From positions 1 to 27,272 of the IMG/VR virus record IMGVR_UViG_3300030101_002901: a DNA stretch of 27,272 nucleotides; one strand, 5' to 3'. Made by a program: the position numbers and the translations under genes. Positions within the stretch are counted from its first letter, which is position 1. The number at the start of each line of letters is the position of its first letter. Positions 354 through 27,012 of this stretch are shown one piece after another. The stretch comes from a virus. The notes below the pieces were generated by a model. The model did not search any database. It was not told the DNA's origin and was given only the letters and a program-made list of their open reading frames with translations.

Positions 354-1406
354 ATGACATATACAGTATTTTCCAAAGATAGGAAGTCATTACAGTTTCC
401 TGTAATGTGCGATGGTTTTATTACAATTCCTAGATTTGAGGCTAATACTCCCAATCAAGAAATTGGTCTATGGTCACATTCTGGTGGATTTTCTTTTGAG
501 GCAGTTTTAACACCATATGATGTTAATGGAAATCCAGATGGATTTTCCGCTACTCAGAAATCTCTTTCAAGGGGAACAAAGGGAGATGCCTATATTTTAG
601 ATGGTAATAGAAAGGATGTTAAAATGAGAGTTTTTCATAATGATAACTTCTTTATCGAACTAGTAAATACAGAATCGGAAACATCTCCCAGTACCCCTGC
701 TAAATATTCTATTAGAGTTACACTAAAAATAGGTTCAACGACAACAACGTTAGAATCTTCTACTGTAATTAACCCCACTGATATTGATGATTCTTCTTTA
801 TCCCCAACAGATTATCTTTATAGTAATCATGGGGCTTTTGCTAAAAAATCTTCTAGAACTGTTCTTTCTAGCGATGATTCAGCCGCTAATAATACAATTA
901 CATTAAGTGGTGCGCCAGAATTTGGTGTTGGATATACGTTGTATAGAGATAATGGGGCTTTAATAGGAGGAATTAATCAAGTAAGTAGTAGCACGGTTAC
1001 TCTTATTGGACAGGCTTTAACTACCGATAATACACCCGCAAATGGTTCGCATATTTATTATTCTTTACCAAAAGAACCATTATATGTAAATACACCACAC
1101 CATATAGCCTTTAATTATACGCCTGATGGTCTAATGCAAATTTTTTATAACGGTGAATTAGTAGGTTCTGGAACTCATGGTGTAGGGGGTAATTTTTCTT
1201 TCGATGCATCAGATTGTTTTATTGGGCAAAATAAAAACGGGTCTAGTTTTACTGTTAGAAGATTAAGTCAATTTATGGGTGAAATACATGAGTTGTCTAT
1301 TATGGGTATTAGTAAAACACAGTTTAAAAGCACCAATACTCTATACCCACTTTTTAAAGACACATTATTGTATATAGATTTTGAGGAGGCAAATTTAGAT
1401 GGCTGA
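354..1406 (+). CDS. LamG/concanavalin-like jelly-roll virion protein
   Basis: This 350-residue protein is probably an exposed tail or adhesion component. The C-terminal half has the pattern of a LamG-type jelly roll: HHIAFNYTPDGLMQIFYNG, then FIGQNKNG, then FMGEIHELSIM. These are the strands around the 'W/H-hv-vt-dg-..lYvNG...G' core and the 'GxIDEl-i' edge strand of Laminin_G_3 domains. The N-terminal 120 residues are also beta-rich. There is no signal peptide. The family is found in phage and archaeal-virus structural proteins and often binds glycans, but the ligand here is unknown. The start is the first ATG after the preceding stop. The last 8 nt overlap the giant gene that follows, whose GAGGAGG-like binding site lies inside this gene. 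The domain call is from pattern only. Confidence 0.65.
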   Translation: MTYTVFSKDRKSLQFPVMCDGFITIPRFEANTPNQEIGLWSHSGGFSFEAVLTPYDVNGNPDGFSATQKSLSRGTKGDAYILDGNRKDVKMRVFHNDNFFIELVNTESETSPSTPAKYSIRVTLKIGSTTTTLESSTVINPTDIDDSSLSPTDYLYSNHGAFAKKSSRTVLSSDDSAANNTITLSGAPEFGVGYTLYRDNGALIGGINQVSSSTVTLIGQALTTDNTPANGSHIYYSLPKEPLYVNTPHHIAFNYTPDGLMQIFYNGELVGSGTHGVGGNFSFDASDCFIGQNKNGSSFTVRRLSQFMGEIHELSIMGISKTQFKSTNTLYPLFKDTLLYIDFEEANLDG

Positions 1407-4400
1407 TGATTTGTTTGTTTTAAATGAGGGAGAAAACATTCCCACAGATTTTACTGCCACTCCAAGTGCAGGAACATTTAATATTAAAACTAGTGTAAAT
1501 CCTAGAGCAGTTAGTATAAACGTTTCTAGTTCTACTACATTGGGAATTAATTGTTATGAGATACATTCAGACGATACTTCTACTATGGGAAGTGGGACAG
1601 TATCTGGTAGTAAGTTAAATAGACTTTTTCCTGAAAGTACCACAGTTGCCGATTATGCTGATAATATAATCGAAAATCCAGGTTACAGAGTTACAATTGA
1701 TACTGGTTTAGCGGGTGTAGATTTAGAAGATACTAGAGATTACTTTATTGTTATTTATGCTGATAATGTAAAGAAACATCACGTTGCTAAAATTACAGAA
1801 CAGACTACATATGATGGCACTAATAAACATTTTGAATTTAGTCCTAGATTAAAAGAAAATATTACTGTTGGAACTAAAGTAGCAATTTATCAAGGACCAC
1901 TAAAAACAGATAATGTAGTTGCAGTTGGGTATGGGTTATTAAATGACACTGCTACTAGCGAAGAAAGACATGATAAATATGTAGACATTAGTAGACCTAC
2001 ATTTTATTTCTACGAGGGGGATAAATTAGACCATGACCGTAAATATACATTACTAAAAGTATCTACTAATTTTTCAGGCACTAAAAAATCTGTTTTTAAA
2101 ACTGCCCCATTATCATCAGATATGATTATTGACAAAAGTTTCTTTACCCATCATGGAGATTTGACGGATAATAATAGAGCAAATGATAACTTATCTACAC
2201 CTAGAGAAATAAATGCCTATAACTCACAGGGTTCTACTTACACATTTGATAGAACAACGTGGGCTGGTTCATCTAAAAATATCTATGATTCCGATGGCGG
2301 TTTATCCACATATATTACCTTCATAGATTCTCCAGTAAAAAATCAAATTCATTCTTCTCCATATTATATTAATGTAAATAAAACTGTAACAAATAAAGGT
2401 AATATGGCTACTGTTAAATTTTTTGATGTTGAAAAAATCTTAGATAAAAAAATTAATACATATGAAAGATTTAAGGTTAAGCAATTTATTACAGAAAAAA
2501 AATTAGACCGAATTGCTTCTAGTGCATTACCTGGAAATTGCACTAACACTACATCTAACACATTTACTGTATCAGGTTTAGTTGCAGGGGAAGATTGGAG
2601 AAAGGTATTGTTTGACGGAAGTAGTGCATATGAACCTATATTTATTGAAAATTACTATTACGTTATTTCTAATATTACTGCACCTGCTAATGGGGAACAG
2701 GTAGTTACTATTACCCACAAAAGATTACTAACTGCAAATGCGTTTAGTTCTGGCACTTTAGAAACATTTAGTGCGAAAAAAGCATTTAGAAAAACATGGT
2801 CGCCCGTATCTCAAACATTTTTGGCCGACCATCAAATTGACACTCAAATAGATTTTGTAAATGCAATAACTAGAAATGGTATTACTGTAACTGCTTCTGA
2901 CTCAGATGTAAATGGTATCGAGTATATTTTAGAAGATTCTAAGGACAGCGTTATTCTAGAAGTAGATAAAGGTGATAAAGATACGGGATATACAAAAATT
3001 ATCTCTAGACCTACTTCAAACTTTTTTAGTGGTAAATTCTTAACTGATTCTATTACGGGAAAATTAATTGTAAATAATCCTATTTTTGATGGGTTTGTTG
3101 AAACTAAAAAAGCCGATGTTAAACAATCATTTAAATACGAGATTGTAGGCCGAGATTCAATTAGTAAATTACTAAATACTTCTTTAGATAAAAATTATGT
3201 TCATAGTGAGGAAATGGTCTACACTACATTTAATCCAATAGTGGGTGATGTGGATAATACAAATGAATTTTCTTATGTAACTTTAATAATAAGCGGTATT
3301 AGTGGTAAAGAAATAACAACTGCACAAGACCCGACAGGAAGACTTACTACGGGTGATGTAATCGGATTAGATTTAAATGACGATAGATATGTAATTTTAG
3401 GTGTGGTTGATTCGGTTTCTAGTGGTCCCAATAAAATAACATTAATGAAAGATAGTTACATTACTGATTTAACAAATATAGGAACAAGCACATTAAATAG
3501 TAACAGAATATATAGAATAAGAAAATCTATAATACCTCATAAAAATCTTGAAACAACACCTAGAATTAATAATAGAGCGACAAGCATAGCAGGAACTTTG
3601 GACAAAGGTATTGTTTTTGGAAGCGGAAAAACTTTTTCTGGTTTCCCTTTAACCTTTGGAGAACCTAAGGCTTTTGCTTTTTCGGGAACTGTAAGTTCTA
3701 GCAATATTGTTTTAGACAATTTACATGAGGCACAGAGATTAAATGTAGGCGATTTTATAATTTCTTCGATTTATCCTTTTGGGACTAAAATTAGCACAAT
3801 ATCTTATGATACAATTGTTCCCTCAAATTCTCCCTTTATAACAGGTTCAACGACGATTGTATTTTCTACTTCTATTAAAAACGGCTTTGACATAGATGAT
3901 TTCATAACACCTATTGTTAATAGTGATGGTGAATATCTAGATTTTCCACTAGGTTTTAAAACAGGTTTAAACATCCCTGCCTCTACTCCAGATATGGAAA
4001 TTATTTCCAGTGAACAAACAGGCGAAGGTAGTGTGTTGTATGAATTGGGTTATGTTTCCCCAATTGTTTTAGGTATGGTTGCAAAAAATGACAATGATAA
4101 ATTTATTAGCGGTAGTAACGAAGATAAAACTCACGCCATTAGGCTAATTAATGGACAGGGGCTTCCTGATGGTGGATTTTTACATTTGTTAAGTAGTTAT
4201 ACTAATTCCGATTATAGCCCTAAGACTTTCAATAATATTTTTTCAGATGACCCAGGATTTGTTTCTACTGTGAAATCTCAATATGCTCTTAGATATACCC
4301 AACCTATTTTTAGATATTCTTCAAAGAACAAAATCAACGCACCCCTTTTACAACCCTATACAAATAAATACGTTAAAATAAATGAAAATAGGGGTGGCAG

Positions 4401-7400
4401 TGGTCCATCAGTATTGTATGATAGAAATGATTATTATGAAAAAACCAATAACTTTAACTTTTATTTATCTTCATATAAAACAAATAGGAAAGAAATAGAC
4501 TACGATAAAGATAATTCTGATTTTTGGCTAAAGGGTTATCCCAAAGAACAGACAGCCATATATCCCGCACTTGGTTCTAGATTTTTTGATATAAATAGAG
4601 TGCCAACTTGGTATTATAATAGCGATGATTTTTATGGTAACAGATTTACCACAAATAACGATTTTGAGGCTTTGAGATTTTATGTTGGGCAAATGGAATT
4701 GCATGACCCTAGTGCTTTATCTATGCATTTATTTTCATTAGGTGACGTATATCCAGAAAGTAAATTAAGTTCTAATAATATATTTAAAACGGATAGAGAT
4801 GTTAATGACTATTCAATTATGTTTAAGAAAAAGAAAATCACTAATTCCGAAACGTCTTCCACAGGATATACTCACTTTAATGACTTACACATGCCTACTA
4901 ATATACAAGTTTCAAGTAGATTGGATGACGAGTATCATACAGAACCAATAAGTTCTTCTAGCGGTGAGCAGATTAGATTTAACCTAATGAGATTAACAGA
5001 CGTTACATTCGATATATTATTTAACGAAATAGATTATGAAAACTATAAAGTTAATGATATGGGAACTGAAATTTCTAAAGGTTTTACTTCTACTACACAA
5101 CCTGGAGTTAGACCTCAATTATTATTAAAATCTTTTCCACAAGCAGGTCTACACAATGTAGATGTAAAGGTAACTAGCGCACATTCGGATTCTGATAAAT
5201 TAAATGTAACTACAACGCATTGGTATAATTCAGATTATGAATATTATATTTATGCATATCTAAACAATTTATCTTATCCTACCTTTGTTGGACGTATAAA
5301 TACAGCGACTTCTAATATAATAACTTTTCATAGCGGTCTTCCTAGCGGTGCTAATGTTACAGATGTAGTTCTATATGTTAGGTCAATAGGAATTGATAGT
5401 GGCACTTCAGAATATTTTGAAAATAATAAAATGCTATTAACAAAAGAAGGAACGATACCTTATTTACCAGAAACATCAGACGTGAACCCGCATAACTATA
5501 ATAAGACGGCATTTTTTACTAATACTGATGATTTTACTGACGCATCTACAAATGTTTTTAATAGCGCATTAAGTGTAACTAATAATTCCGCAATTATCAG
5601 AACACCCATTTTTGTAAATAGTAGAGCAGGATTTACCAACGGAGTTGTAAGCACTACGGAAAACAGCGATTTAGCAACAGTTACAACAGCACCAAATTTT
5701 CACCTTTCTGTAAGTGTAACTACTTCTGGTGATACTATTACTTTGCAAGATTCAAATTCTAAATTGACTCACTTTTTAGATTTATTTCAAAGTAATAAAA
5801 TAATGTTCACATCTAGTAGTGCTAATGTTGATGCCTTATTTGGTTCTACGTCTGCTACTGCTAGAGTTACTGAAATAGGGTCGGCTAATCAGTGGCAATT
5901 AACTAGCGGTTCACATAGCACTTCTAATTTTCAAACAGGAATGAGATTTATTATTAATAGCACTACTTATACCGTAACAAGGATTATAGATGCGTCAAAT
6001 TTTGAGGCTAGTCCTGCTCATGGTGGTGGTGGTGGTCCAAGTAACGTTACTCTTCCTTCTTCCGCTAACGGTAGTATTGATTCCACGGAACTATTTATCG
6101 CAATAACAGGATTTACCCACGACACTACTCAAAATAGAAATTATAGAATAGCATCATATACGGATACTACTCTTACCTTAAAAGATATGGCAGGAAACGC
6201 TGCGGCTCTCGGAACTGCTAGTGCAGTTACCATTGCAATTAAAGGTATTGACGCTTCTAGTTTAGCAGTAGGATATACGGGCGGAACTACTTATGGTGCT
6301 GCTTGTGTAGAAACAGTAAATGGTGCTACTGAACCCATTAATAGATTTAATATTATTAATACCATAATTCCTCACAGGGCTTGGTATGATACTGAAACAA
6401 AGTTGGACTTTGGAAGCATGGACACGGTGGCTGTTAAGTTTAATAATATAATAGAATTAGGTTCAGAATTTGCACCTCTTAGTGAAGAAGTAAGAGAAAC
6501 AGTAGGTGCTATTTGTGATGATGAATTTGCAGGAACGACTCTTAGTGAAATATCTTTTAGTCAATCGGGAACACAAAGATGGAATAGAGCGCAACGGATA
6601 AATTATACTGCTACTGAGGGTTTGCTAAATACTAATTATAGGAATGGTGCTACTGCTACCAAAGAAAGAATATACGGTGCTGAAATATTGTTTAGACCTT
6701 ATATTAAATATAATTCTTCTACAATGCATGTTACAGATACATTGGAAGAAAGTGGTGAGGAAACGTTATTTTTTGAAATTTATAATAACGTAGACTATGA
6801 ACATGCTTCTAATCAAAACACATGGTTAAATTATTGCAACAATTTGACAGGCTATTACTTCTATAACGAAAACGATTCTACTCTACACAAGGTTATTTCG
6901 CATGAAATTAATAGAACTAATAGCACAGTGTTTAGACATTTATTAAAATTAGATAATATGAGTAGTGTTACTAACAACGACATATTAAGGCTCATGAGAA
7001 TTAACCAAGTCTGTATGTACGATTTTACACCAAAAAGAATAGTATTAAATGAACCAAAACCAGAATATACTAAAATTCCAGGTCAAGTAAAAACACACGA
7101 TATTATATATGACGCTACTAGAATGTCATCAGAAAACGATGGTTCAAATATGTTTTTAGATACAACAAACAATACAAAGGGGGTTCTTTCGATGTATGTT
7201 TTGATAGACCCTGATGGAACAAATGCCAATACATATTTAGAAACAAGAACAAGTGCTAGAGCAACTTCATATTCTCAAATATCAGATACGGGCAAAAGAG
7301 TATATGTTACAGACGGTGTTAATAACTTTTCAACAACTTTAACAAAAAAGGATTCATCATTAGAATTTGAGCAAATTAAAAAGGTTTTAGGAACACCTTC

Positions 7401-8346
7401 TGTTGGAACTATATTTACCGTAAAGGTAAATCGTTCTCCTAATTTCAGACCAGAAACAGCCACAATAGGGGCTTCTTTTAAAATTGTTGATGAGATAGAA
7501 GCGGTAATTAATGACGCATTTGAAATTAATGATATTTCTTATACTCAGGACACAGCAGATGACAAGTATTATGGGGCATTTAATTTTACAGGGCAATCAT
7601 TATATTCAGCCGCTAACAATCTTTTATCTTACAAGAATAAAGAAATATTAGTGGATGGAGAAGAGATTAAGATTGTAGATAAAGAGGATGAGAAAAAATA
7701 TAGAAATATTGTGTTATCTTCTAAAAACTCAGACTTTCAGATTACTTCCATTAATAATGACGTTTCCCTATTGGATAACTTTGACGAAGTAATTGTTATT
7801 GGCGATGGAGTTAGAGGCATTGCTAGAAATCCAATTAGCACCACAGATGCCAACAGAACAATCAAAACAAAAGAGATATATGACTATTCAATTTTAGACC
7901 AACGACAAGCCGACCTCAAGGCAATACAATATCTTGATGTGTTTAATACAGCCAATACATCAATTGAAATTGAAGTGGCGGATAACGTGCCATTCCTAAA
8001 ACCTGGACATATTATTGAATTAGAGTTTGAGGAACAGAATATCCCAAGAGGTGATTACTTAGTTATCGAAACTGAAAAGGAATTTGGCCGTCCTACTAAA
8101 TTTATCCTATCCGAATATTCAAAAGATTTGGCAGGAACATTCTCTTTACTATTGGGTGAGATTAGAAATCTACAAGGGTTTACAAGGCAAAAGGTTTATA
8201 CATCCACAACTATCCCTAGAATCAAGAGGGATAAGGTCAATATCAAATTTGTTAAATCTACGGCCACGCTAACCTCAAGTATTACTACAACAAGCACAAT
8301 AGGATTTGGTTACACAATAGGATTTGATTCGGAGGTAGGAGTATGA
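1399..8346 (+). CDS. Giant (2315 aa) baseplate/tail-hub-like protein
   Basis: This is the largest gene in the window. It is almost entirely beta-rich, poor in Cys and rich in Asn/Ser/Thr. The last ~250 residues (about 2070-2290) look like the hub domain of phage baseplate proteins of the gp27/late-control-D kind: ANNLLSYKN, then ILDQRQADLKAIQYL, then IEIEVADNVPFLKPGHIIEL and IPRGDYLVIETEKEFG. A second stretch at about 545-595 (ending GRDSISKLLN) resembles the first half of such a hub fold. If so, about 1500 residues have been inserted between the two halves. A GGGGG run lies near residue 1541. The start has a GAGGAGG site and overlaps the LamG-like gene. The stop overlaps the next gene as ATGA. 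No protease or lysozyme motif was seen. A role as baseplate hub or central tail fibre is inferred from position and the C-terminal pattern. Confidence 0.55.
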   Translation: MADDLFVLNEGENIPTDFTATPSAGTFNIKTSVNPRAVSINVSSSTTLGINCYEIHSDDTSTMGSGTVSGSKLNRLFPESTTVADYADNIIENPGYRVTIDTGLAGVDLEDTRDYFIVIYADNVKKHHVAKITEQTTYDGTNKHFEFSPRLKENITVGTKVAIYQGPLKTDNVVAVGYGLLNDTATSEERHDKYVDISRPTFYFYEGDKLDHDRKYTLLKVSTNFSGTKKSVFKTAPLSSDMIIDKSFFTHHGDLTDNNRANDNLSTPREINAYNSQGSTYTFDRTTWAGSSKNIYDSDGGLSTYITFIDSPVKNQIHSSPYYINVNKTVTNKGNMATVKFFDVEKILDKKINTYERFKVKQFITEKKLDRIASSALPGNCTNTTSNTFTVSGLVAGEDWRKVLFDGSSAYEPIFIENYYYVISNITAPANGEQVVTITHKRLLTANAFSSGTLETFSAKKAFRKTWSPVSQTFLADHQIDTQIDFVNAITRNGITVTASDSDVNGIEYILEDSKDSVILEVDKGDKDTGYTKIISRPTSNFFSGKFLTDSITGKLIVNNPIFDGFVETKKADVKQSFKYEIVGRDSISKLLNTSLDKNYVHSEEMVYTTFNPIVGDVDNTNEFSYVTLIISGISGKEITTAQDPTGRLTTGDVIGLDLNDDRYVILGVVDSVSSGPNKITLMKDSYITDLTNIGTSTLNSNRIYRIRKSIIPHKNLETTPRINNRATSIAGTLDKGIVFGSGKTFSGFPLTFGEPKAFAFSGTVSSSNIVLDNLHEAQRLNVGDFIISSIYPFGTKISTISYDTIVPSNSPFITGSTTIVFSTSIKNGFDIDDFITPIVNSDGEYLDFPLGFKTGLNIPASTPDMEIISSEQTGEGSVLYELGYVSPIVLGMVAKNDNDKFISGSNEDKTHAIRLINGQGLPDGGFLHLLSSYTNSDYSPKTFNNIFSDDPGFVSTVKSQYALRYTQPIFRYSSKNKINAPLLQPYTNKYVKINENRGGSGPSVLYDRNDYYEKTNNFNFYLSSYKTNRKEIDYDKDNSDFWLKGYPKEQTAIYPALGSRFFDINRVPTWYYNSDDFYGNRFTTNNDFEALRFYVGQMELHDPSALSMHLFSLGDVYPESKLSSNNIFKTDRDVNDYSIMFKKKKITNSETSSTGYTHFNDLHMPTNIQVSSRLDDEYHTEPISSSSGEQIRFNLMRLTDVTFDILFNEIDYENYKVNDMGTEISKGFTSTTQPGVRPQLLLKSFPQAGLHNVDVKVTSAHSDSDKLNVTTTHWYNSDYEYYIYAYLNNLSYPTFVGRINTATSNIITFHSGLPSGANVTDVVLYVRSIGIDSGTSEYFENNKMLLTKEGTIPYLPETSDVNPHNYNKTAFFTNTDDFTDASTNVFNSALSVTNNSAIIRTPIFVNSRAGFTNGVVSTTENSDLATVTTAPNFHLSVSVTTSGDTITLQDSNSKLTHFLDLFQSNKIMFTSSSANVDALFGSTSATARVTEIGSANQWQLTSGSHSTSNFQTGMRFIINSTTYTVTRIIDASNFEASPAHGGGGGPSNVTLPSSANGSIDSTELFIAITGFTHDTTQNRNYRIASYTDTTLTLKDMAGNAAALGTASAVTIAIKGIDASSLAVGYTGGTTYGAACVETVNGATEPINRFNIINTIIPHRAWYDTETKLDFGSMDTVAVKFNNIIELGSEFAPLSEEVRETVGAICDDEFAGTTLSEISFSQSGTQRWNRAQRINYTATEGLLNTNYRNGATATKERIYGAEILFRPYIKYNSSTMHVTDTLEESGEETLFFEIYNNVDYEHASNQNTWLNYCNNLTGYYFYNENDSTLHKVISHEINRTNSTVFRHLLKLDNMSSVTNNDILRLMRINQVCMYDFTPKRIVLNEPKPEYTKIPGQVKTHDIIYDATRMSSENDGSNMFLDTTNNTKGVLSMYVLIDPDGTNANTYLETRTSARATSYSQISDTGKRVYVTDGVNNFSTTLTKKDSSLEFEQIKKVLGTPSVGTIFTVKVNRSPNFRPETATIGASFKIVDEIEAVINDAFEINDISYTQDTADDKYYGAFNFTGQSLYSAANNLLSYKNKEILVDGEEIKIVDKEDEKKYRNIVLSSKNSDFQITSINNDVSLLDNFDEVIVIGDGVRGIARNPISTTDANRTIKTKEIYDYSILDQRQADLKAIQYLDVFNTANTSIEIEVADNVPFLKPGHIIELEFEEQNIPRGDYLVIETEKEFGRPTKFILSEYSKDLAGTFSLLLGEIRNLQGFTRQKVYTSTTIPRIKRDKVNIKFVKSTATLTSSITTTSTIGFGYTIGFDSEVGV

Positions 8347-12902: not shown

Positions 12903-13496
12903 TTACCAATCTAATTTGGTAATAACATAATCGCCCGCTTCTTCATCGAAGAATTTAAGGCTTTTATTTTCAACACCCATCTTATACACATTTAGGCTCA
13001 ATTGAGAATCTAAAAGGCAATACTTTGCAACTTCTTCGTATCTACCTTCTCCCCACCATTTTACTGCGGTTAAACCATCACCGCTTTTTTGTTCACCCAA
13101 GTTACACTTAGCCAAATTATCTAACTGTACTCTTTTACCACTAGCCTTTGTCATAAGACGACTAGTATCAATACATCTTGTTTCTCTACTATCTAAATAT
13201 TTTCTTGTGATAAAAATATCCATTGAATCTCTCAAAGCGGGCAAATCAAATGCTACAATATTGTGACCCAATAACTTACCACCCTTTTGAAAGTGGTCAT
13301 CCAAATCATACTTCAATTGTCTTAGCGATTTCACCACCGCATTATCTACATTTACAGGTTCATCAATGTAGACCGTATTATTAATTCCATCCGTTGTAGT
13401 TACGCAGGAAATTTTCCACATATGGGTATTCTGCCAACCTCCAATATCAGCAGCAGTATTCGCTGTTTCTATATCAATCGCTAGTATATCATTCAT
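12903..13496 (-). CDS. DEDDy-type 3'-5' exonuclease
   Basis: This 197-residue RNase H-like exonuclease has the three motifs in order: Exo I AIDIETAN (D8, E10), Exo II GHNIVAFDLP (N79, D84) and Exo III YCLLDSQLS (Y159, D163). The Tyr-x-x-x-Asp form puts it in the DEDDy group with proofreading domains and the RNase_H_2-type stand-alone nucleases. PolB in this cluster has its own exonuclease domain, so this enzyme more likely resects or degrades DNA, or repairs ends. The frame is open from a TTG at 13505, but the ATG at 13496, behind GGTGG, overlaps the upstream stop and is preferred. It is the last gene before the terminator. The C-terminus is ITKLDW. Confidence 0.8.
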   Translation of the reverse strand: MNDILAIDIETANTAADIGGWQNTHMWKISCVTTTDGINNTVYIDEPVNVDNAVVKSLRQLKYDLDDHFQKGGKLLGHNIVAFDLPALRDSMDIFITRKYLDSRETRCIDTSRLMTKASGKRVQLDNLAKCNLGEQKSGDGLTAVKWWGEGRYEEVAKYCLLDSQLSLNVYKMGVENKSLKFFDEEAGDYVITKLDW

Positions 13497-13680
13497 TATA
13501 TTCAACCACCATTCTCAAAACGTCGAGTATGTCTTGATGATTATAACCAGATAATACAAGTTTATTAACCTTTTCCGCTATTTCTGCATCAACACAATAT
13601 AGGAACAGGTCAATGATTTGTTCCTTGTCTAACTCCGTTCTTAGATAATTAGAAAACTCTCTTGCTACTTCACTTCTCAT
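13489..13680 (-). CDS. Hypothetical protein, 63 aa
   Basis: This small, helical, acidic protein was not recognised. It begins MRSEVAREFSNYL, and the second half (YCVDAEIAEKVNKLVLSGYN, then ILDVLRMVVEYNE) could be a short helical bundle. The start is strongly supported by AAGGAGG, 7 nt before the ATG, lying inside the end of the AAA+ ATPase gene (11-nt overlap). The same 14-nt string AAGGAGGAAGCAAA precedes the Cas4-like gene at 18295. It is coupled at its end to the DEDDy exonuclease gene by an 8-nt overlap. It may be a partner of the ATPase or the exonuclease, by position only. Confidence 0.6.
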   Translation of the reverse strand: MRSEVAREFSNYLRTELDKEQIIDLFLYCVDAEIAEKVNKLVLSGYNHQDILDVLRMVVEYNE

Positions 13681-15184
13681 TTTGCTTCCTCCTTACTTGG
13701 ACTCTATTACCATTTATTCTTCTTTCATCAAAGAGATGTTCTACATTATCCCATTCTCGATAGAAAGTTGCTCTACCCTTTTGGGTCAATTTCATGTATG
13801 TATTTACCATTTGTGTTTTAGAAACCCACCCATCTTTTTTAGGGCAATTCTCAAATACCTTGATGATAATTGCTTCTCTTCCCTTTTCCTGTATTCGCTT
13901 GGGGTTCTTCTTTAATTTATTGCTAAACCATGTTGTGATTGAATCAAAACTTTTGTCTGTTAAAGACTTGGCCTGCATAACGTGTCGTCGCTCAATGATT
14001 GGATTCTTTTCAGCAATAGCGCAAATACCTGCGGCTATACTAACATTGTTCAAAGTATTCATCAAGAAGGTATTCAATGCTTCAAAGATGTGGTCTGAAA
14101 AACCATCCATGTATTTACGCATACTTTTCCAAACAACTTTGAGAGCCGCTTTAGCGTCACTTGACCAGATAACAACCTTTCGCTTATCTCCCGTCTTTTC
14201 ATGTCGGTCTTTACACCACTTGTAAATATCATACATCATCGTTGCAAACTCTTCTGCAAATATATCAGAATCATCCGACGACTCATCAATAACTCCAACA
14301 TTATCAATATAATCCTCTTCCATTTTCATCTTCAAAGATTCAGGAACTTCTCTAACATAAAGCCACATTCTTTGAAATACACCCTTTGTGAGAATTACCT
14401 TTTCTAAACCCTGAGGAGGTAGAGTAGTAGCCCAAAGACTTCTTTGACAATCTACAACTAAATCTCTTCCCCATTCAGTCAATCTTTTCTTAATCAAATG
14501 CGTATCAGAATCCAGTCTGTTCATAAACTTCTGAAACATCATTACTGTGTCCTGCTTATGTTGCGTTTCTTTGAAAATACCAGAGTGTTCAAACTCATCA
14601 AAGGCAATAATACCAGAACCAAATAATGCACCCGCAATTGGTATATCAATAAGTTCTGGTATGGGATTGCCTTCAAAGTCTACGTTATCAGCACCTCTAG
14701 CAAATTCAGGATTAGGTTGGTCAATCTTAATTGTTCCCAATAGGGCTTGGTCTGTAAATGCGTCAGGATTTGATAGAGTAAATTCATTTACGCCATTTAG
14801 CGGTCCTCTTGGTCTTTCTAATGTAAGAGGATGATTGTTAATCAATTTGAAAACTCTATCCCATACGGGGGATAAAAAGTCAAACATTGTTGTCTTACCA
14901 CTTCTCGCTGTTTGAATCCAACAGAAATGAATCCTAGTATCAAGGGCTAACTTCCCAACAGGTATTCTTACATGGTCTTTAACCAATTGTCCAACCGTTG
15001 TATAGAAAGCCATTGTAGCCGCATAATCATTATGTAATGAAAATTGACCAACAACCTCAACCCATCTATTTACAACGGGTGGTAACTCGACCTTTTCCCT
15101 TATTTCTTTTATGGTATCACTTTGGGCCACCTTTTCCATAGCCTCATAAAGTTCCCATTCGTCTACGTCTAAATCTTCTGGCAT
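13670..15184 (-). CDS. AAA+ ATPase, candidate replicative helicase
   Basis: This 504-residue protein has a P-loop ATPase core. Residues 91-98 (QTARSGKT) are a degenerate Walker A. GIIAFDEFEH (D196, E197) is the Walker B. WATTLPP at about 251-257 sits where a sensor-1 polar residue is expected, and GVFQRMWLY (R272) looks like an arginine finger. The order DEF, then a polar turn, then xxxR resembles MCM-type and phage DUF3987-type helicases. The last ~70 residues (GWVSKTQMVNTYMKLTQKGR onwards) look like a winged helix. No other helicase is visible in the window, so it is the best candidate for unwinding at the fork, though a loader or terminase-like role cannot be excluded. Its ATG overlaps the ERCC4 gene's stop as TAATG, behind GAGGTGA. 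Confidence 0.6.
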   Translation of the reverse strand: MPEDLDVDEWELYEAMEKVAQSDTIKEIREKVELPPVVNRWVEVVGQFSLHNDYAATMAFYTTVGQLVKDHVRIPVGKLALDTRIHFCWIQTARSGKTTMFDFLSPVWDRVFKLINNHPLTLERPRGPLNGVNEFTLSNPDAFTDQALLGTIKIDQPNPEFARGADNVDFEGNPIPELIDIPIAGALFGSGIIAFDEFEHSGIFKETQHKQDTVMMFQKFMNRLDSDTHLIKKRLTEWGRDLVVDCQRSLWATTLPPQGLEKVILTKGVFQRMWLYVREVPESLKMKMEEDYIDNVGVIDESSDDSDIFAEEFATMMYDIYKWCKDRHEKTGDKRKVVIWSSDAKAALKVVWKSMRKYMDGFSDHIFEALNTFLMNTLNNVSIAAGICAIAEKNPIIERRHVMQAKSLTDKSFDSITTWFSNKLKKNPKRIQEKGREAIIIKVFENCPKKDGWVSKTQMVNTYMKLTQKGRATFYREWDNVEHLFDERRINGNRVQVRRKQNEK

Positions 15185-15870
15185 TAATACTTCACCTCTT
15201 TTCTACTTCTTAGTGCATCTAATATATTTGATGCGGTAACTTTACCTATTCCATCTATAACCATAATGTCTTTTATATCTAGTCCTGCTATCTCATAAAC
15301 AGAACCAAATTGTTCTAAAAGAGCCTTAGCCTTTTCTACGCTAATACCCGTTATGTTTGTCATTATATCTACTCTCACGTCATCACTTCTTGTTTTCTTT
15401 GGTAACATCTTTTGCAAATCAACATCTTTGTCTATGTTATATCTCATGGCAGTAATAATGTTAGCCGCTTCTTGAGATGATGTAACCCATATTGGCGTTG
15501 TGTTTGTATTCATGGCTATTGCTGAAAATGCGCCATAAACCATACGTTTTAACTTCTCACCCCATTGTTTTTGTTGGTAATAAGTCATATTCCTCACCGT
15601 ATTCAAATACTCTATGGCTTGAGACACATGACCGTAAATAATTACATAACATTTCTCATAATTATCTTCCATGTTGCTTATCTGGTTAAAAATTCTCTTA
15701 TTTCTAACAGAAGCGAGGAAATCAGACATGCTTTTGGCTTCAATTACTACATTTCCGAAGGTATAATCACCAACTTCAATGAATTTCTTCTCATATTTGA
15801 TTCCCGCTAGATTACAACACCCAATTACGGACTCACTTAGCGAAGAATTTTCTCTAGAATCAATTATCAC
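15184..15870 (-). CDS. ERCC4/XPF-type structure-specific nuclease with HhH tail
   Basis: This 228-residue protein has the ERCC4 nuclease layout: IDSRE at 3-7, GDYTF at 34-38, and VIEAKSMSDF at 42-51 where the usual motif is ERKxxxD. The middle Arg of ERK is Ala here, while Glu44, Lys46 and Asp50 remain. The C-terminal ~60 residues are tandem helix-hairpin-helix (ITGISVEKAKALLEQFG, then VIDGIGKVTASNIL), which bind branched DNA. XPF/Hef relatives cut flaps and stalled forks, so it probably processes replication or recombination intermediates. The start is GTG at 15870, directly after the primase stop. GGTGGTGAT just upstream is the ribosome binding site and also codes the primase's last residues. 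Confidence 0.8.
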   Translation of the reverse strand: MIIDSRENSSLSESVIGCCNLAGIKYEKKFIEVGDYTFGNVVIEAKSMSDFLASVRNKRIFNQISNMEDNYEKCYVIIYGHVSQAIEYLNTVRNMTYYQQKQWGEKLKRMVYGAFSAIAMNTNTTPIWVTSSQEAANIITAMRYNIDKDVDLQKMLPKKTRSDDVRVDIMTNITGISVEKAKALLEQFGSVYEIAGLDIKDIMVIDGIGKVTASNILDALRSRKEVKY

Positions 15871-17394: not shown

Positions 17395-18295
17395 ATGTAT
17401 TCACGCCCCCTGCTGCATCACAATGTTCATAATGACCACATTTCTCACACTTCTTATAAAAGAACTTATGAGGGAACTCTCTTTCAAAATAGGCTGCGGC
17501 TAATTTCTTTAGAGAGTTTAGAACAGAAGTCATTGACCTCGATTTTACTTCTTCAACATAGATATAATTAGAGGCGGGAAAAAACCATCCCCAACTTGTT
17601 ATACCGTGTCTAGGATTGATACCTTGTTTTATCAACTCCTCTGCCTCACATTCCTCAAAAAGCAATTGATAAAAAGCCATTTCTTTTCTCATGTATGTTT
17701 TTTTACTATCTTTCCACGGGCCTGTCTTTAATTCAAGTGGCACATAACCATCACCATCAAAGAACATTCTATCAATTATTCCCTGCAAATGCACGTTAAT
17801 AATCCCATGATTTTCTATTTCTAAAGGGTAAGTAGCATCAAGCATTACTTCATTAGCAATTGGTTTGTAAAACTCTAGCGTTCCTTCCTTAACTGAATCA
17901 ATAAAACGTTCAGCCGACCATGCGCTCATCGCCCTATAAATTGCCACCGATATTTCATCTTCAGCATCAGGGTAATATTCTCTAAAGTGTTTTACTAATG
18001 CATTGGGGTCATCAATAAAACTCATAGCCTTTTCAATATTCATTTCATCCCAAAACCTTTCCTGAGCATCATGGACTCTTGTTCCTCTTAGCATAGCCTC
18101 ACTTGTTTTTTGTTTTCTTTTACCTTCACCAAAAGGGTCATAGGAATAAACATATGACGCAGGACAAAAATTAAATGTTCCGATGGAAGATTTAGTAATC
18201 TTTAACGTTGGTCCGTCTTTTGCGGACGGATTCCATTGATAGGTAAAACCATTATTTATATCTCTCTCGCTCCATTCTTCTACATATTCTTTCAA
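17381..18295 (-). CDS. Cas4/RecB-like PD-(D/E)XK nuclease with Fe-S cysteines
   Basis: This 304-residue nuclease has the RecB-family order: GTRVHD (H75), GIIDRMF (D175), PLELKTG (E188, K190) and KEMAFYQLLF (Q210, matching QxxxY-like motifs). Cys44 (FCPASY) with C283, C286 and C292 (KCEKCGHYEHC) gives the one-plus-three cysteine set that holds a 4Fe-4S cluster in Cas4 and AddB. No cas1, cas2 or repeat array is nearby, so this is a viral recombination or end-processing exonuclease, not CRISPR adaptation. The start is TTG at 18295 with AGGAGG 7 nt upstream. No ATG suits until past the N-terminal Cys. It overlaps the HNH gene stop by 4 nt. The C-terminus is NTYDWF. Confidence 0.8.
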   Translation of the reverse strand: MKEYVEEWSERDINNGFTYQWNPSAKDGPTLKITKSSIGTFNFCPASYVYSYDPFGEGKRKQKTSEAMLRGTRVHDAQERFWDEMNIEKAMSFIDDPNALVKHFREYYPDAEDEISVAIYRAMSAWSAERFIDSVKEGTLEFYKPIANEVMLDATYPLEIENHGIINVHLQGIIDRMFFDGDGYVPLELKTGPWKDSKKTYMRKEMAFYQLLFEECEAEELIKQGINPRHGITSWGWFFPASNYIYVEEVKSRSMTSVLNSLKKLAAAYFEREFPHKFFYKKCEKCGHYEHCDAAGGVNTYDWF

Positions 18296-18774
18296 TTTGC
18301 TTCCTCCTTTAATGTATCAATTAGTTTTGACGCTTCGCCTCTAGTCATGTTTGTTGTTATTCGGCTCTTTCCTCCTAATTTCTTGATGTATTCTTCTTGT
18401 CTTATGGTCATCGCTCCATTAGGATTCTTTATAGTTTTAGCACCACCGCCATTTTGTTCAATGTGTTTTCTTCTTAAACTTGCAGTAGTTTCATCATGAC
18501 AACTTCTACAAATTTCAATAACGTTGGTTCTAGAATGTATTAGATATTCTTTGTTTATCTCTCTACATCTATGTTGGCTAATAATGTGATGCCATTCTGT
18601 TCCACCTTCGGTTAAACAAATTGTGCATCTGCCAGCCTTTATCCACATTTCTCGTTCTTTCTTAACTTCCGCTAAGAATTCTTGCTCAATTTCTCCTACT
18701 TCGCCCTTTTTCTTTTGAATACGTTCATGTATATTCCTAAGGGTCTTTAAATATGTTCCTTCTTTCTTTCCCAT
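18292..18774 (-). CDS. HNH-type nuclease/zinc protein with helical tail domain
   Basis: This 160-residue protein starts at the ATG overlapping the PolB stop (TAATG), with GGAG 8 nt upstream. A longer frame reaches 18834 but has no site. Residues 1-45 are a charged helix. The HNH core is CTIC (C50, C53), WHHI (H62, H63), N84 and EICRSCHDE (C89, C92, H93), so zinc is probably held by the four cysteines and the His-Asn-His set would cut DNA. The last ~45 residues (AMTIRQEEYIKKLGGK, then MTRGEASKLIDTL) form a small domain that I have seen in pattern at the ends of other phage proteins (Q..yi..L....t..eAs.lI..L). It may be a free-standing endonuclease acting during replication or packaging. It does not look like an intron or homing insertion, because genes on both sides are intact. 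Confidence 0.7.
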   Translation of the reverse strand: MGKKEGTYLKTLRNIHERIQKKKGEVGEIEQEFLAEVKKEREMWIKAGRCTICLTEGGTEWHHIISQHRCREINKEYLIHSRTNVIEICRSCHDETTASLRRKHIEQNGGGAKTIKNPNGAMTIRQEEYIKKLGGKSRITTNMTRGEASKLIDTLKEEAN

Positions 18775-21218
18775 TAAAACCACTCCGTTAGTGTTTTCTG
18801 ATAAATGTCCTTTTTGATTAAACCAATGGACCATCCTAAACTCTCAAAAATTAGTTCTGATTTCTTTATTACTTCGGCTTGGGCAATAAATTGCCAATCT
18901 GGAGTGTATTTACCATCCACTTCATGAAAGTTTCTGAAAGCAATATAATTTGCTTCATTGGACTTCCCATTCCAAATATAATACTTTTCTCGCAGTTCCG
19001 CATTATTCATTTTAAAATAGAAATACGAATCACCATTTTCTATTCTCCCAATCTTTTGTTGATTGTAATAAATAATACCTGCAACGCCCCCAGCAATTGA
19101 TTTGTAATCTTTTAACTTTTGACGCAATCTACTTCTTTTGCTTATATCTCTAAGACTAACATTACCTGTATATAATTGTTTATATGAATCATTACAGTAT
19201 TTGATAATTTCTTCGCTATCGGAGAAGGACGATACCATTTCCAACAGCCTTCGCTGATATGTTTTAGCAAATTTAGTTTCGTTGCTTTTCTTCATTTCAA
19301 AACCCATGACAAAGAATTTATCCTCATCGAGATATTCTCCATCTTTCCATGATAACCAACCGCAGTAACGATTCTTCTTAGTAGATAAGAAAAACTTACT
19401 AGCGAATTTCTCAAATTCAAGTTCAACAGGTTCTCTAAAAACCTTCTTAATATATTCATTTAATTCTACTCGCAATAAATGGGCCTCCGCTACACCAGAT
19501 ACCTTTACAAAGATTGAATCTGTGTGTCCATAAATAACTTCATAACCCAACTCTTGAGCCTTAAATGCAGTTTCACGCATAGCCCTTCTCGCTGATGCGG
19601 TAATGGATTTAGCCATTTCCATATCGCCCCATCCATAATTATCCTTAGCAAGAATACCATAGAATGCATTAACGACACGCTTGGTAGCCATTTGTGCTGA
19701 ATCCCACTTTCTATACTCTTCATCAGTTTTAGCCTCTTTACGCAACTTCTTATATTCATCACGCATAGCCATTAACTCTTTTACAGCCTTTGGCAGTAGA
19801 CCATCCTTTTTACTACAATAGTGAATATCTGTTTCACCCTGCCAAAGCATTAGATTCTTTGGGGTCTGATACCATACAGGATAATCTCCCTCTTCGGGAT
19901 TTCTTTTTTTAGTTTCCCATGATATATTCATTGATGCCATCATTGAAGGGTATAGCGATTTGAAATCGAATACGGCTACATTTTCATGCAAACCGAATGT
20001 GCCTTCAATCTTAGGATTCATAACGAAAGCCGCTTCAAAGTTTTCCTTTGTTCCTTTTATACCAGAAGGAGCAATCCAATCAGCAACACGCATAAAATAT
20101 ACACCCGCCATTTGCGAATTGTGGAACGTAGATTCAAACGGACATTTAATCAATCTTTGTAGTGCTAAACTGTTCTCACTAATGTTCATCTTTTCATCAA
20201 TATCCACGCATAATTTTACGTCCTTTATTGCATACTCCAAATATACTTTAGTATCTTCTAGCCATGCACGTTCATAGAATTCAGAATCCTGAAACTTAGA
20301 CGTGCTAACTTTTCCTTCATCTTCACCTAAAACCAACTTAGAACAGTCATCCAATTTCAGACTAGGTAATGTCCCCATTTGTGAATCAGTCCATAGTCGT
20401 TCAAATCTATCCATTAGGCAGAATGTAAGACGACCTCTAATTGGTTGTGCGCTATTGATATACTTGTCAATGTTAGAATGAATAGCATTCCCACGCTTAT
20501 ACACACCCTTAATATTTCTAAGAGGTGAAAGGCGAGTAGCATCTATTCCCATTTCAACCAACCTGTTGATAACTTTAGGAATATCATAACCTAAAACATA
20601 CCAACCTAGAATCATATCAGGGTCATGTTCTTCCATTAGAGATACAAAATCTTCCATCATATCTTCTTCTGTTTTGTGAAAATGGTTCACAATATTTAAA
20701 CCTTCAAAGTCTTTAATTTCTTCTGGAAACTGTTCTGGGAACCATGCAAATAAATGGTATGTTTCCGTGTAATTATCATACACAGATAATACTGTAATTG
20801 CATCATGATAAATACCCTGTTGTTGAACCTCAATATCGAAATACCATTTACGCAAATTGTATTCCTTTACCTCCTCAAGTTTGTCCACGCAATAAAGTCT
20901 TCTCATATCTACATCACCTTGATAGGTTCTGATTCCTCTATTCTCAAGACCTTTCTTGACATTGTATCTATTGTCGGGATGACCATAGAAAACTTTCTTT
21001 AGAGGATAACCTTCTAAAGAATGACCATCAGCAAAAGACATTGTTTGCAACTTGTAATAGTTATCTCCATATTTACCTTTGAATACCAATTGTCTTGGAA
21101 CTTTTTCGTCAATTTTGACATAAAAGTATGGCTCAAATGGTTCTCTATCTACTACACGCTCATTGTTTTCATCTCGATAAATAAGTTGTATCTCAGTTCC
21201 CACATAATCAATTATCAT
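18774..21218 (-). CDS. polB: Family B DNA polymerase with proofreading domain
   Basis: This is the replicative polymerase, 814 residues from the ATG at 21218. Exonuclease motifs: FDIE (D128, E130), GWYVLGYDIP (D212) and YAIKD (Y329, D333). Polymerase motifs: A VFDFKSLYPSM (D418), B KRVVNAFYG (513-521) and C YGHTDS (563-568), followed by KKNRYCGW (614-621) of the thumb side. Motif C is normally YGDTDS, and the first Asp is His565 here. The last eight residues, QKTLTEWF, are a textbook PCNA-binding PIP box. The frame opens earlier at a TTG (21251), but GGAG lies 9 nt before the chosen ATG, inside the end of the upstream gene. It is coupled downstream to the HNH gene. There is no intein and no uracil-pocket call was attempted. 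Confidence 0.95.
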   Translation of the reverse strand: MIIDYVGTEIQLIYRDENNERVVDREPFEPYFYVKIDEKVPRQLVFKGKYGDNYYKLQTMSFADGHSLEGYPLKKVFYGHPDNRYNVKKGLENRGIRTYQGDVDMRRLYCVDKLEEVKEYNLRKWYFDIEVQQQGIYHDAITVLSVYDNYTETYHLFAWFPEQFPEEIKDFEGLNIVNHFHKTEEDMMEDFVSLMEEHDPDMILGWYVLGYDIPKVINRLVEMGIDATRLSPLRNIKGVYKRGNAIHSNIDKYINSAQPIRGRLTFCLMDRFERLWTDSQMGTLPSLKLDDCSKLVLGEDEGKVSTSKFQDSEFYERAWLEDTKVYLEYAIKDVKLCVDIDEKMNISENSLALQRLIKCPFESTFHNSQMAGVYFMRVADWIAPSGIKGTKENFEAAFVMNPKIEGTFGLHENVAVFDFKSLYPSMMASMNISWETKKRNPEEGDYPVWYQTPKNLMLWQGETDIHYCSKKDGLLPKAVKELMAMRDEYKKLRKEAKTDEEYRKWDSAQMATKRVVNAFYGILAKDNYGWGDMEMAKSITASARRAMRETAFKAQELGYEVIYGHTDSIFVKVSGVAEAHLLRVELNEYIKKVFREPVELEFEKFASKFFLSTKKNRYCGWLSWKDGEYLDEDKFFVMGFEMKKSNETKFAKTYQRRLLEMVSSFSDSEEIIKYCNDSYKQLYTGNVSLRDISKRSRLRQKLKDYKSIAGGVAGIIYYNQQKIGRIENGDSYFYFKMNNAELREKYYIWNGKSNEANYIAFRNFHEVDGKYTPDWQFIAQAEVIKKSELIFESLGWSIGLIKKDIYQKTLTEWF

Positions 21219-21435
21219 TTCTGTCATCTCCTTCTCGCCATTCTCTATCAACCTTTACTCTAACAGTAAAGAGTTCTAAGTCATTGAATAGTTCTATGAT
21301 AGCCCATTCAATATTATCCTTTACTGAATCTATAATATTAAGTTCAGTTGCTTTTTCAGGATTAGGGTCATAAATAACTTGATAGTTTTCATCATTAAGA
21401 TTAGCCCTAATCGTTACTTCTATTCCTCGCTTCAT
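21208..21435 (-). CDS. Hypothetical protein, 75 aa
   Basis: This small alpha/beta acidic protein was not recognised: MKRGIEVTIRANLNDENYQV, a helix in the middle (IDSVKDNIEWAIIELFNDLE), a strand (FTVRVKVDREW), then a polar end. The start has GGGGGTGAT 5 nt upstream of the ATG and lies inside the MazG-like gene (29-nt overlap). The end overlaps PolB by 11 nt and supplies its ribosome binding site, so it is probably translated at a similar level. Possible roles are a polymerase accessory or a nucleotide-pool protein, by position only. Confidence 0.6.
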   Translation of the reverse strand: MKRGIEVTIRANLNDENYQVIYDPNPEKATELNIIDSVKDNIEWAIIELFNDLELFTVRVKVDREWREGDDRNDN

Positions 21436-26103: not shown

Positions 26104-27012
26104 TCATTGTTTTATATTTGCCACGAACCATGCCACCAAAACTTTTGGAGTTACACTTCTGCTTCTCCATTCTGTTTCTCCTACTAGGGCTACTACCTTA
26201 AACTTAGTGCTAGGTGGTAAATCCATATCTAATACAGATTGTAGGAGTTTATTGCATATATCCTTTACAGAATGTCCTGCCGTTACAAGACGGTTTAAGA
26301 AATCCAAAGATTCCCCATGCTTGTCATCTAAAGCATTCTGAATACATAATTTGTAAGGGACGATGTTTTCTCGATGCAAATTCTTTGGTGTTTTGCCAGA
26401 ATAAATACACGCTTGTAATTCATTAATTGCTCGTCGCATATCGCCTCCAGAAATCTCCACCAAAGTTTCAACATCTTCCAACGCCATCATCACATCATTT
26501 TTCTTCGCTATTTCTAACAGCATATCTTCAACGATATAACTGTTAATTGGCTCGAAGAAATAGTTTGCACAGCGACTTCTCAAAGCCTCGTCCACTCCAT
26601 AAACATCGTTGCAGGTAATAATAAATCGGACATTGGTTGCCCGTTCCATTGTTCTCTTCAACGCTCTTTGTGAATCTCTTGTCATGCCTTCAATTTCGTC
26701 CAACAAAACAATCTTGATTTTGTTATCAGAAACTGAACCATAATTAACAAAGTTTGTAATCGTTTGTCTAACTGTTTCTAGTTTCCTATCTTGACTAGCG
26801 TTAATCTCCAAGAAATCAGCATTTTTGTCATCGCCTAAAAATTCATTACCGATAACATGACTCGCTGTTGTCTTTCCTGTTCCAGGTCTTCCCGCCAATA
26901 ATAGGTTAGGGAAGTCACCTTTCTTTTTCCATGTACGGGCATCTTCAGTAAATTTAGTCTGCCCTACAATCTCTTCAATCCTTTTTGGTCTGTATTTTTC
27001 TGTCCAATTCAT
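26104..27012 (-). CDS. rfcS: Replication factor C small subunit (clamp loader)
   Basis: This 302-residue AAA+ protein has every RFC-small signature: WTEKYRPK at 3-10 (the RFC box), Walker A GRPGTGKT (41-48), Walker B LLDEIEGM (D105, E106), sensor-1 N135 in IITCND, and the RSRC arginine-finger motif (145-148). ISGGDMRRAINELQ near 200 is the sensor-2 region, and a collar domain follows. It loads PCNA onto primed DNA with ATP. Cellular archaea need a large subunit too; none is in this window, so it may borrow the host's or form a homo-oligomer. It overlaps the upstream membrane-protein gene by 38 nt. No inserted intein. Confidence 0.95.
   Translation of the reverse strand: MNWTEKYRPKRIEEIVGQTKFTEDARTWKKKGDFPNLLLAGRPGTGKTTASHVIGNEFLGDDKNADFLEINASQDRKLETVRQTITNFVNYGSVSDNKIKIVLLDEIEGMTRDSQRALKRTMERATNVRFIITCNDVYGVDEALRSRCANYFFEPINSYIVEDMLLEIAKKNDVMMALEDVETLVEISGGDMRRAINELQACIYSGKTPKNLHRENIVPYKLCIQNALDDKHGESLDFLNRLVTAGHSVKDICNKLLQSVLDMDLPPSTKFKVVALVGETEWRSRSVTPKVLVAWFVANIKQ

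Follow-up and report, generated by a model that had tools for sequence, protein, structure and literature searches.

In family B DNA polymerases (PolBs), the catalytic metals are held by the Asp of motif A and the second Asp of motif C, as described for RB69 polymerase and Pol delta (PMC3564110, PMC4142720). In the structure of the Pfu polymerase, Asp541 forms a salt bridge with Lys593 and orients this lysine, which reads the penultimate base of the primer, and Lys706 of RB69 and Lys498 of phi29 are reported to behave like Pfu Lys593 (passages on this contact in PMC3733885). In human Pol epsilon, contacts of E858 and D860 in the palm with K954 in the thumb are released when a T-C mismatch occupies the post-insertion site, and the authors suggest that this release may trigger proofreading (PMC11638069). 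How family B enzymes detect a mismatch after insertion and transfer the primer to the exonuclease site is a matter of ongoing study; for Pol epsilon, the Asp-Lys contact has recently been put forward as the possible trigger. Here we describe a virus gene, polB, whose product has replaced both partners of this dyad. The gene lies in IMG/VR virus record IMGVR_UViG_3300030101_002901, the whole of which (27,272 bases) was analyzed and is called the window below.

The product of this gene has His568 at the first Asp of motif C and Asn619 at the second Lys of the KKRY motif. We favor, with moderate confidence, the reading that it is an active replicase in which the mismatch-sensing Asp-Lys dyad was jointly replaced by His568-Asn619 and mismatch sensing was thereby retuned.

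The window PolB lacks both residues of the Asp-Lys dyad

The polB gene occupies positions 18774..21227 on the minus strand and encodes 817 amino acids (P0001) followed by a stop codon, with an ATG at 21227. An original prediction, made from the DNA sequence, had placed the gene at 18774-21218 and numbered the unusual residue His565; its stop end is retained here, and its start is replaced, as 21218 is the next in-frame Met and translation from the upstream ATG makes this residue His568. The product belongs to family B by its match to the Pfam DNA_pol_B profile (158 bits, curated cut-off 23), it matches phrog_262 in PHROGs (5.6e-97), and its AlphaFold2 model (mean pLDDT 90.5) has the PolB fold, with the KOD, Tgo, 9N, and RB69 polymerases as top Protein Data Bank matches (TM 0.62-0.83 among the 50 best shown).

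Motif C of this protein reads YGHTDS (19515..19532, minus strand; codons TAT GGA CAC ACA GAT TCA, read 19532-19515), as had been predicted. The first Asp of the motif is missing, and His568 is encoded at 19526-19524 by CAC rather than by the CAT named in the original prediction; the second, metal-ligand Asp (Asp570) is intact. A further change, which that prediction had missed, is found in the thumb, where KNRY (residues 618-621; 19365..19376, minus strand) stands in place of the expected KKRY, with Asn619 encoded by AAT at 19373-19371. The lysine lost from this KxY motif is common in the family and not strictly defining. In a profile alignment to Pfu polymerase (3a2f), H568 falls on Asp541 and N619 on Lys593 (numbers counted along the printed alignment). 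Because these two positions align with the dyad and the metal ligands D421 (motif A) and D570 are intact, it appears that both partners of one sensing contact were swapped in the clade to which this enzyme belongs, with the metal site left untouched.

YGHTDS is shared by a large group of virus polymerases

Two close relatives from different IMG datasets, L002 (98% identical) and L003 (97%), contain the same His codon as the window, and L003 has a silent difference in the Tyr codon of motif C. When relatives were sought with patterns lying outside motif C, 27 of the 31 loci recovered reached this motif, and all 27 read YGHTDS. A second scan, which used alignment-based patterns elsewhere in the protein and returned partly the same contigs, made motif C visible in 54 of 71 loci; it was YGHTDS in 53, nine of which belong to a group at about 26-27% identity, and YGDTDS in one. 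In the remaining loci (4 of 31 and 17 of 71, L022 among the latter) motif C was absent from the open reading frame (ORF) read.

An alignment of the window PolB with 45 other virus PolBs (27-64% identity to the window) contains both H568 and D570 in all 46 rows. In this alignment, 22 rows are the window and products of the two relative scans, whose patterns touch neither position 568 nor position 619, and the remaining 24 came from a scan for YGHTDS[IV]F or motif B in which N619 was not required. Only 52 positions are invariant across the 46 rows, and 568 and 619 are among them; invariance down to 27% identity indicates a strong present-day constraint on both. Among 75 distinct sequences found without a pattern for the residue pair, the His codon is CAC in 39 and CAT in 36, and the use of both codons indicates that selection acts on the residue.

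Based on these sequence comparisons, His568 is a clade signature, a possibility that the original prediction had raised, and is under strong constraint. A read or assembly error, for which that prediction proposed looking for GAT in place of the His codon, is excluded by L002 and L003, by 53 of 54 loci, and by the synonymous variation of the codon. Such an error, or an inactivated polymerase, which is considered below, has a negligible probability as the explanation of YGHTDS.

Asn619 accompanies His568

Residues K618, N619, R620, and Y621 are present in 46/46 rows of the alignment, where canonical PolBs read KKRY. Asn619 is likewise found in each of the 75 distinct His-type sequences mentioned above, one of which, the C-terminal part of a split gene (L114), reads KNRN instead of KNRY. 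The 17 Asp-type rows that include this region all have Asp at 568, and they have Lys at 619 in 15 cases by automatic alignment and in two by hand; in these two (L037 and L111), the aligner set an Asn on the column, and Lys was counted since these proteins read KNY, in which the Lys precedes the Tyr by two residues. The same alignment misplaced the KxY motif of two rows from the B2 group, for which the motif was taken from a sequence comparison instead.

We also asked which of the 814 alignable positions separate the two types, taking as separating a residue found in at least 95% of His rows and a different one found in at least 75% of Asp rows. For this comparison, the split gene L114 and L103, whose ORF ends soon after motif C, were excluded, and rows of at least 80% identity were collapsed. 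With 71 His representatives, 34 of which had been found by requiring both His and Asn, only positions 568 and 619 passed. When the other 37 His representatives were compared with the 17 Asp rows, positions 437, 568, and 619 were the only ones to pass, and the same three were obtained with 16 His rows from the window and the motif-independent scans. Positions 568 and 619 are fully fixed in the His rows; at position 437 (codon 19919-19917, just after motif A), Trp is found in 36 of 37 His rows, against Pro in 12 of 16 Asp rows. The thresholds were chosen by us, and looser ones add position 761 and then 532.

Mixed pairs were sought in IMG/VR with patterns that allow 37-47 residues between the two motifs and use chosen codons. 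In three such scans, none of the 51 matches had a PolB motif C context (Asp+Asn, 0/25, and with the other Asp codon 0/15; His(CAT)+Lys, 0/11). The same pattern for His(CAT)+Asn returned at least 115 PolB-like sequences (115 of the 120 among the matches listed), and that for Asp(GAT)+Lys returned 7 PolB-like sequences in 46 matches. The spacing had been fitted to the His group, which explains this last low count, and all of the Asp scans would miss Asp-type enzymes whose motifs lie farther apart.

A new acidic residue that substitutes for the lost first Asp, as has been proposed for B2, is unsupported: wherever 90% or more of the His rows are acidic, at least half of the Asp rows are acidic as well, the lowest such share being 0.53. 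B2/G2 PolBs have a group-specific D(K/R) motif, and the His rows show no acidic site that is clearly gained.

Two irregular genes were seen among the PolBs examined. In L114 (2986-6449), which belongs to the same clade, the PolB gene is interrupted between motifs B and C, leaving ORFs of 556 and 308 amino acids with three small ORFs between them, and the C-terminal part has a Cys-rich insert and a KSLTDWW tail in addition to its His, Asn, and KNRN. In L103 (2755-4830), a distant PolB, the ORF ends 36 residues after YGDTDS with SVSQDTRIQT, which we take to resemble the first residues of an intein inserted at motif C. A related group of virus PolBs of ∼745 amino acids (L090-L097, L100, L115, and L122) has AMYHS in motif A versus SLYPS.

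The catalytic and exonuclease residues are intact

The remaining PolB motifs of the window, all on the minus strand, are motif A (FDFKSLYPS, 19944..19970, with metal ligand Asp421), motif B (KRVVNAFYG, 19656..19682, with K516), exo I (D131-I-E133, 20829..20837), exo II (GWYVLGYDIP, 20577..20606, with Asp215), and exo III (Y332-A-I-K-D336, 20220..20234). Residues D131, E133, D215, Y332, D336, D421, and K516 are invariant in the 46 rows. Exo II of the window reads GWY where several other PolBs have Asn (GWN): W209 is present and at least 90% conserved, and Tyr replaces the Asn of the PolII-like GWN signature. The C-terminal PIP-like peptide, QKTLTEWF (18777..18800), retains Q810, L813, and W816 in 18/18 close-clade rows, the window included, but PCNA_N has no match in any of the 14 virus records examined below. 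The motifs and PIP box that the original prediction had described as intact are thus conserved across relatives, and its view that the gene looks functional agrees with the conservation of the metal and exonuclease residues. The same conservation leads us to reject an inactivated polymerase. An ORF with weak HNH endonuclease matches (18292-18834, minus strand) overlaps the 3' end of polB.

Both metal ligands, D421 and D570, are present in all 46 rows, which bears on the proposal that His568 acts as a metal ligand or displaces one and so alters metal preference, for example toward Mn. Transition metals are readily bound by His, and human Pol alpha mutants of this motif reportedly change metal use. 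However, the two Asp residues that bind metal are both intact, and a change in metal choice does not predict the paired change from Lys to Asn, so we regard this explanation as improbable. Of the three effects that the original prediction had offered for His, metal choice is accordingly less likely, since both metal-binding Asps are intact, and fidelity is the better reading, since the salt-bridge partner of the first Asp is the lysine in contact with the penultimate base (PMC3733885); lesion bypass, the third, fares poorly for reasons given below.

The His-Asn pair arose once in the sampled tree

With the two motifs left out, a tree was computed from 55 rows (36 His, 17 Asp, and 2 B2). It unites the His rows in a single clade (SH-aLRT 99), within which three branches separate deeply, and the nearest Asp rows are PolBs of haloviruses and haloarchaeal plasmids and, less surely, of phage Cr30 (84, long branch). 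Two scans of genome contigs, which reach close relatives only, gave no cellular homologue: the first had a related polB in 0 of 14 stretches and the second in 1 of 168. This one (L108, NZTP01000016.1) is viral-looking; it is binned in an Altibacter metagenome-assembled genome, its polB is 61% identical to that of the window with the same motif, and it is probably a virus contig in the bin.

The tree also supports the explanation that the pair is neutral or frozen history, in which a tolerated change of Asp to His and Lys to Asn in an ancestor had little functional effect and has been inherited since because single revertants are worse. A single origin, an otherwise conventional catalytic center, and the separation of the groups by a third position, 437, all fit this explanation. 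Against it stands the finding that 568 and 619 are among so few invariant positions at this depth of divergence, an observation still compatible with functional equivalence of the two pairs. We consider a neutral history unlikely, with a minor but appreciable chance of being correct.

Several points weigh against a retuned His568-Asn619 contact. Since His and Asn arose once in the sampled tree, their co-occurrence represents one event held by descent and not replicated covariation. As position 437 separates the groups too, the His-Asn pair is not their unique marker. The pair scans are confined to one range of spacings and to chosen codons, with His+Lys covered for CAT only, and the comparison set is 17 Asp rows, 2 of them registered by hand at KxY. 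Finally, Asn is shorter than Lys, and the base may be out of its reach.

Other family B groups have also lost the first Asp. Published members of B2, piPolB, and PolB_SITDG are without it, so that this residue is not strictly defining for family B, and both MotifC and KxY are strongly divergent in the crAss-like and HelPrimPolB groups (PMC7544198). Divergence at both motifs in the latter groups is consistent with coupling of the two sites. The phage crAss001 was of no use as a PolB comparison, since it is annotated with DNA polymerase I and the stretches read hold no annotated PolB.

Four haloarchaeal plasmid proteins (L350, L351, L352, and L354), which are annotated as "type B DNA-directed DNA polymerase" and which we assign to B2 from this label and their motif features, have HGIVDS and LTKY and are missing exo I and exo III. 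Like the window PolB, these B2/G2 (Dpo2) proteins are without the first Asp and the KxY Lys; they differ in having Ile at the Asp position, Thr at the KxY Lys, and His at the Tyr position, where the window has YGHTDS and KNRY. They represent another lineage that lacks both partners, with other residues in their place. A conserved His in motif C of B2/G2 has been reported (PMC7544198). Membership of the window PolB in B2/G2 is rejected, as its His is at another position and its exo I and exo III residues are kept (46/46). The statement in the original prediction that some archaeal polymerases vary at this site holds for group B2, but the variation in the four haloarchaeal proteins is Ile at this site and His at the position of the Tyr.

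These proteins are relevant to the explanation that the window PolB works in lesion bypass or with low fidelity and resembles archaeal B2/Dpo2, in which an altered motif C is used for translesion synthesis. The shared loss of the first Asp and the KxY Lys favors this explanation, and B2/Dpo2 is described as a damage-tolerance polymerase (PMC7544198, PMC7390963). However, the window PolB keeps the catalytic exonuclease residues that the assigned B2 proteins are without, it is the sole PolB in each of the 14 virus records examined below, and in the window it shares its strand with clamp-loader and nuclease genes, as fits a replicase. We judge it very improbable that the window PolB serves lesion bypass.

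Genome setting

On the minus strand of the window are also found a clamp loader resembling the RFC small subunit (26104..27012; phrog_168, 9.1e-54; Pfam AAA), whose nearest named matches are in haloviruses such as HVTV-1 and HCTV-5 (30-31%), a nuclease with ERCC4 and HhH domains (15184..15870; Pfam ERCC4, 1.7e-19), and a PD-(D/E)XK nuclease gene. The presence of these genes on its strand places polB in a replication module, and the other module of the window is encoded on the opposite strand from these replication genes.

The same gene content was examined in 14 virus records, 13 of which are 39-96 kb long and none of which is rated complete. Each of the 14 has exactly one match to DNA_pol_B, and none matches the DNA_pol_A profile, which makes PolB the likely replicase. 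ERCC4 is found in 14/14 and an ATP-dependent ligase in 10/14, the ten being the longer records of the close clade, at 64-96 kb; the ligase is absent from the window fragment and from three records of the distant group. PCNA_N and the PF01896 primase were each found in 0/14 records. Among phage records, none reached 60% identity.

Three other proteins of the window were noted. An ORF at 12903-13505 (minus strand) encodes a DnaQ-like exonuclease (phrog_403, 3.2e-09), though PolB keeps its own exonuclease domain. A 2315-amino acid ORF at 1399-8346 (plus strand) has no Pfam match at 0.01 and no PHROGs match at 0.001, and the adjoining protein (354-1406) has a LamG-like match below cut-off.

Magroviruses, which infect Poseidoniales, are reported to encode ERCC4 and an ATP-dependent ligase (PMC10160649, PMC12999244). 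The window group resembles the Magro PolB group and the magroviruses, as these are described in PMC7544198, PMC10160649, and PMC12999244, in its PolB, ERCC4, PD-(D/E)XK nucleases, ligase, and opposite-strand layout. This likeness is one of gene content, and the 0/14 results for the PF01896 primase and PCNA_N set the window group apart from magroviruses. A magrovirus label for the group is likely. In our favored reading, the virus is a tailed, probably archaeal one from the sea.

Proposed function of the His568-Asn619 pair and comparison with known polymerases

The salt bridge made by the Asp in canonical PolBs holds the lysine within the minor groove, in contact with the penultimate primer base. 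We propose that this dyad, to which the palm contributes the first Asp of motif C and the thumb the second Lys of KKRY, was replaced pairwise by His568 and Asn619, and that these residues would meet at the same palm-thumb interface in a hydrogen-bonded contact that carries no charge. A direct contact between His568 and Asn619 is suggested by the alignment to the Pfu dyad. Such a contact would keep the interface and read the minor groove otherwise, via water, by the His, or not at all; with an Asn shorter than Lys, direct contact with the base may be lost, water-bridged, or taken over by the His. Mismatch sensing and extension would then be retuned and two-metal chemistry left unchanged, and the fidelity of His-Asn polymerases would be predicted to differ from that of Asp-Lys enzymes.

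More broadly, we put forward tentatively that in a large clade of marine viruses the charged Asp-Lys switch was rebuilt as an uncharged His-Asn one, an alternative fidelity switch in a proofreading replicase that was fixed once and has been kept among lineages whose enzymes have only between roughly a quarter and a third of their residues in common. No description of a paired His-Asn change was found in the literature searched, which did not take in figures, supplements, or the founding magrovirus paper, and the His may already appear in the Magro logo (Figure 4 of PMC7544198); the motif string YGHTDS had no match in the literature searched. A clade with both partners swapped is a natural double mutant for testing the idea that the Asp-Lys contact is a trigger, and the paired swap could inform the engineering of archaeal-type polymerases. 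The combination of YGHTDS and KNRY also offers a simple marker for this group of virus PolBs in metagenomes.

The B5-type PolBs of haloviruses and haloarchaeal plasmids (such as those of HCTV-5 and a Halobaculum plasmid), which are PolII-like, form the nearest well-placed Asp-type branch. Like the window group, they have a Trp in exo II, as is described for the PolII-like clade (PMC7544198), and in HCTV-5 an RFC gene lies about 2 kb from polB, comparable to the clamp loader of the window. At the dyad, however, the B5-type PolBs have YGDTDS (GGDTDS in HATV-2) with KKRY, KKFY, or KKKY, and the window group has YGHTDS with KNRY.

Pol epsilon and Pfu differ from the window PolB in the charge of this contact. 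D860 of Pol epsilon is probably the first Asp of motif C, judging from its spacing, from the yeast residue numbers (Asp875 and Asp877, PMC4142720), and from a motif C that we take to be ELDTDG. Its contact with K954 would then be equivalent to H568/N619 and is charged, where the window has an uncharged His-Asn pair. In Pfu, Asp541 and Lys593 occupy the same two alignment positions as H568 and N619, and what is a charged salt bridge there is an uncharged His-Asn pair in the window PolB.

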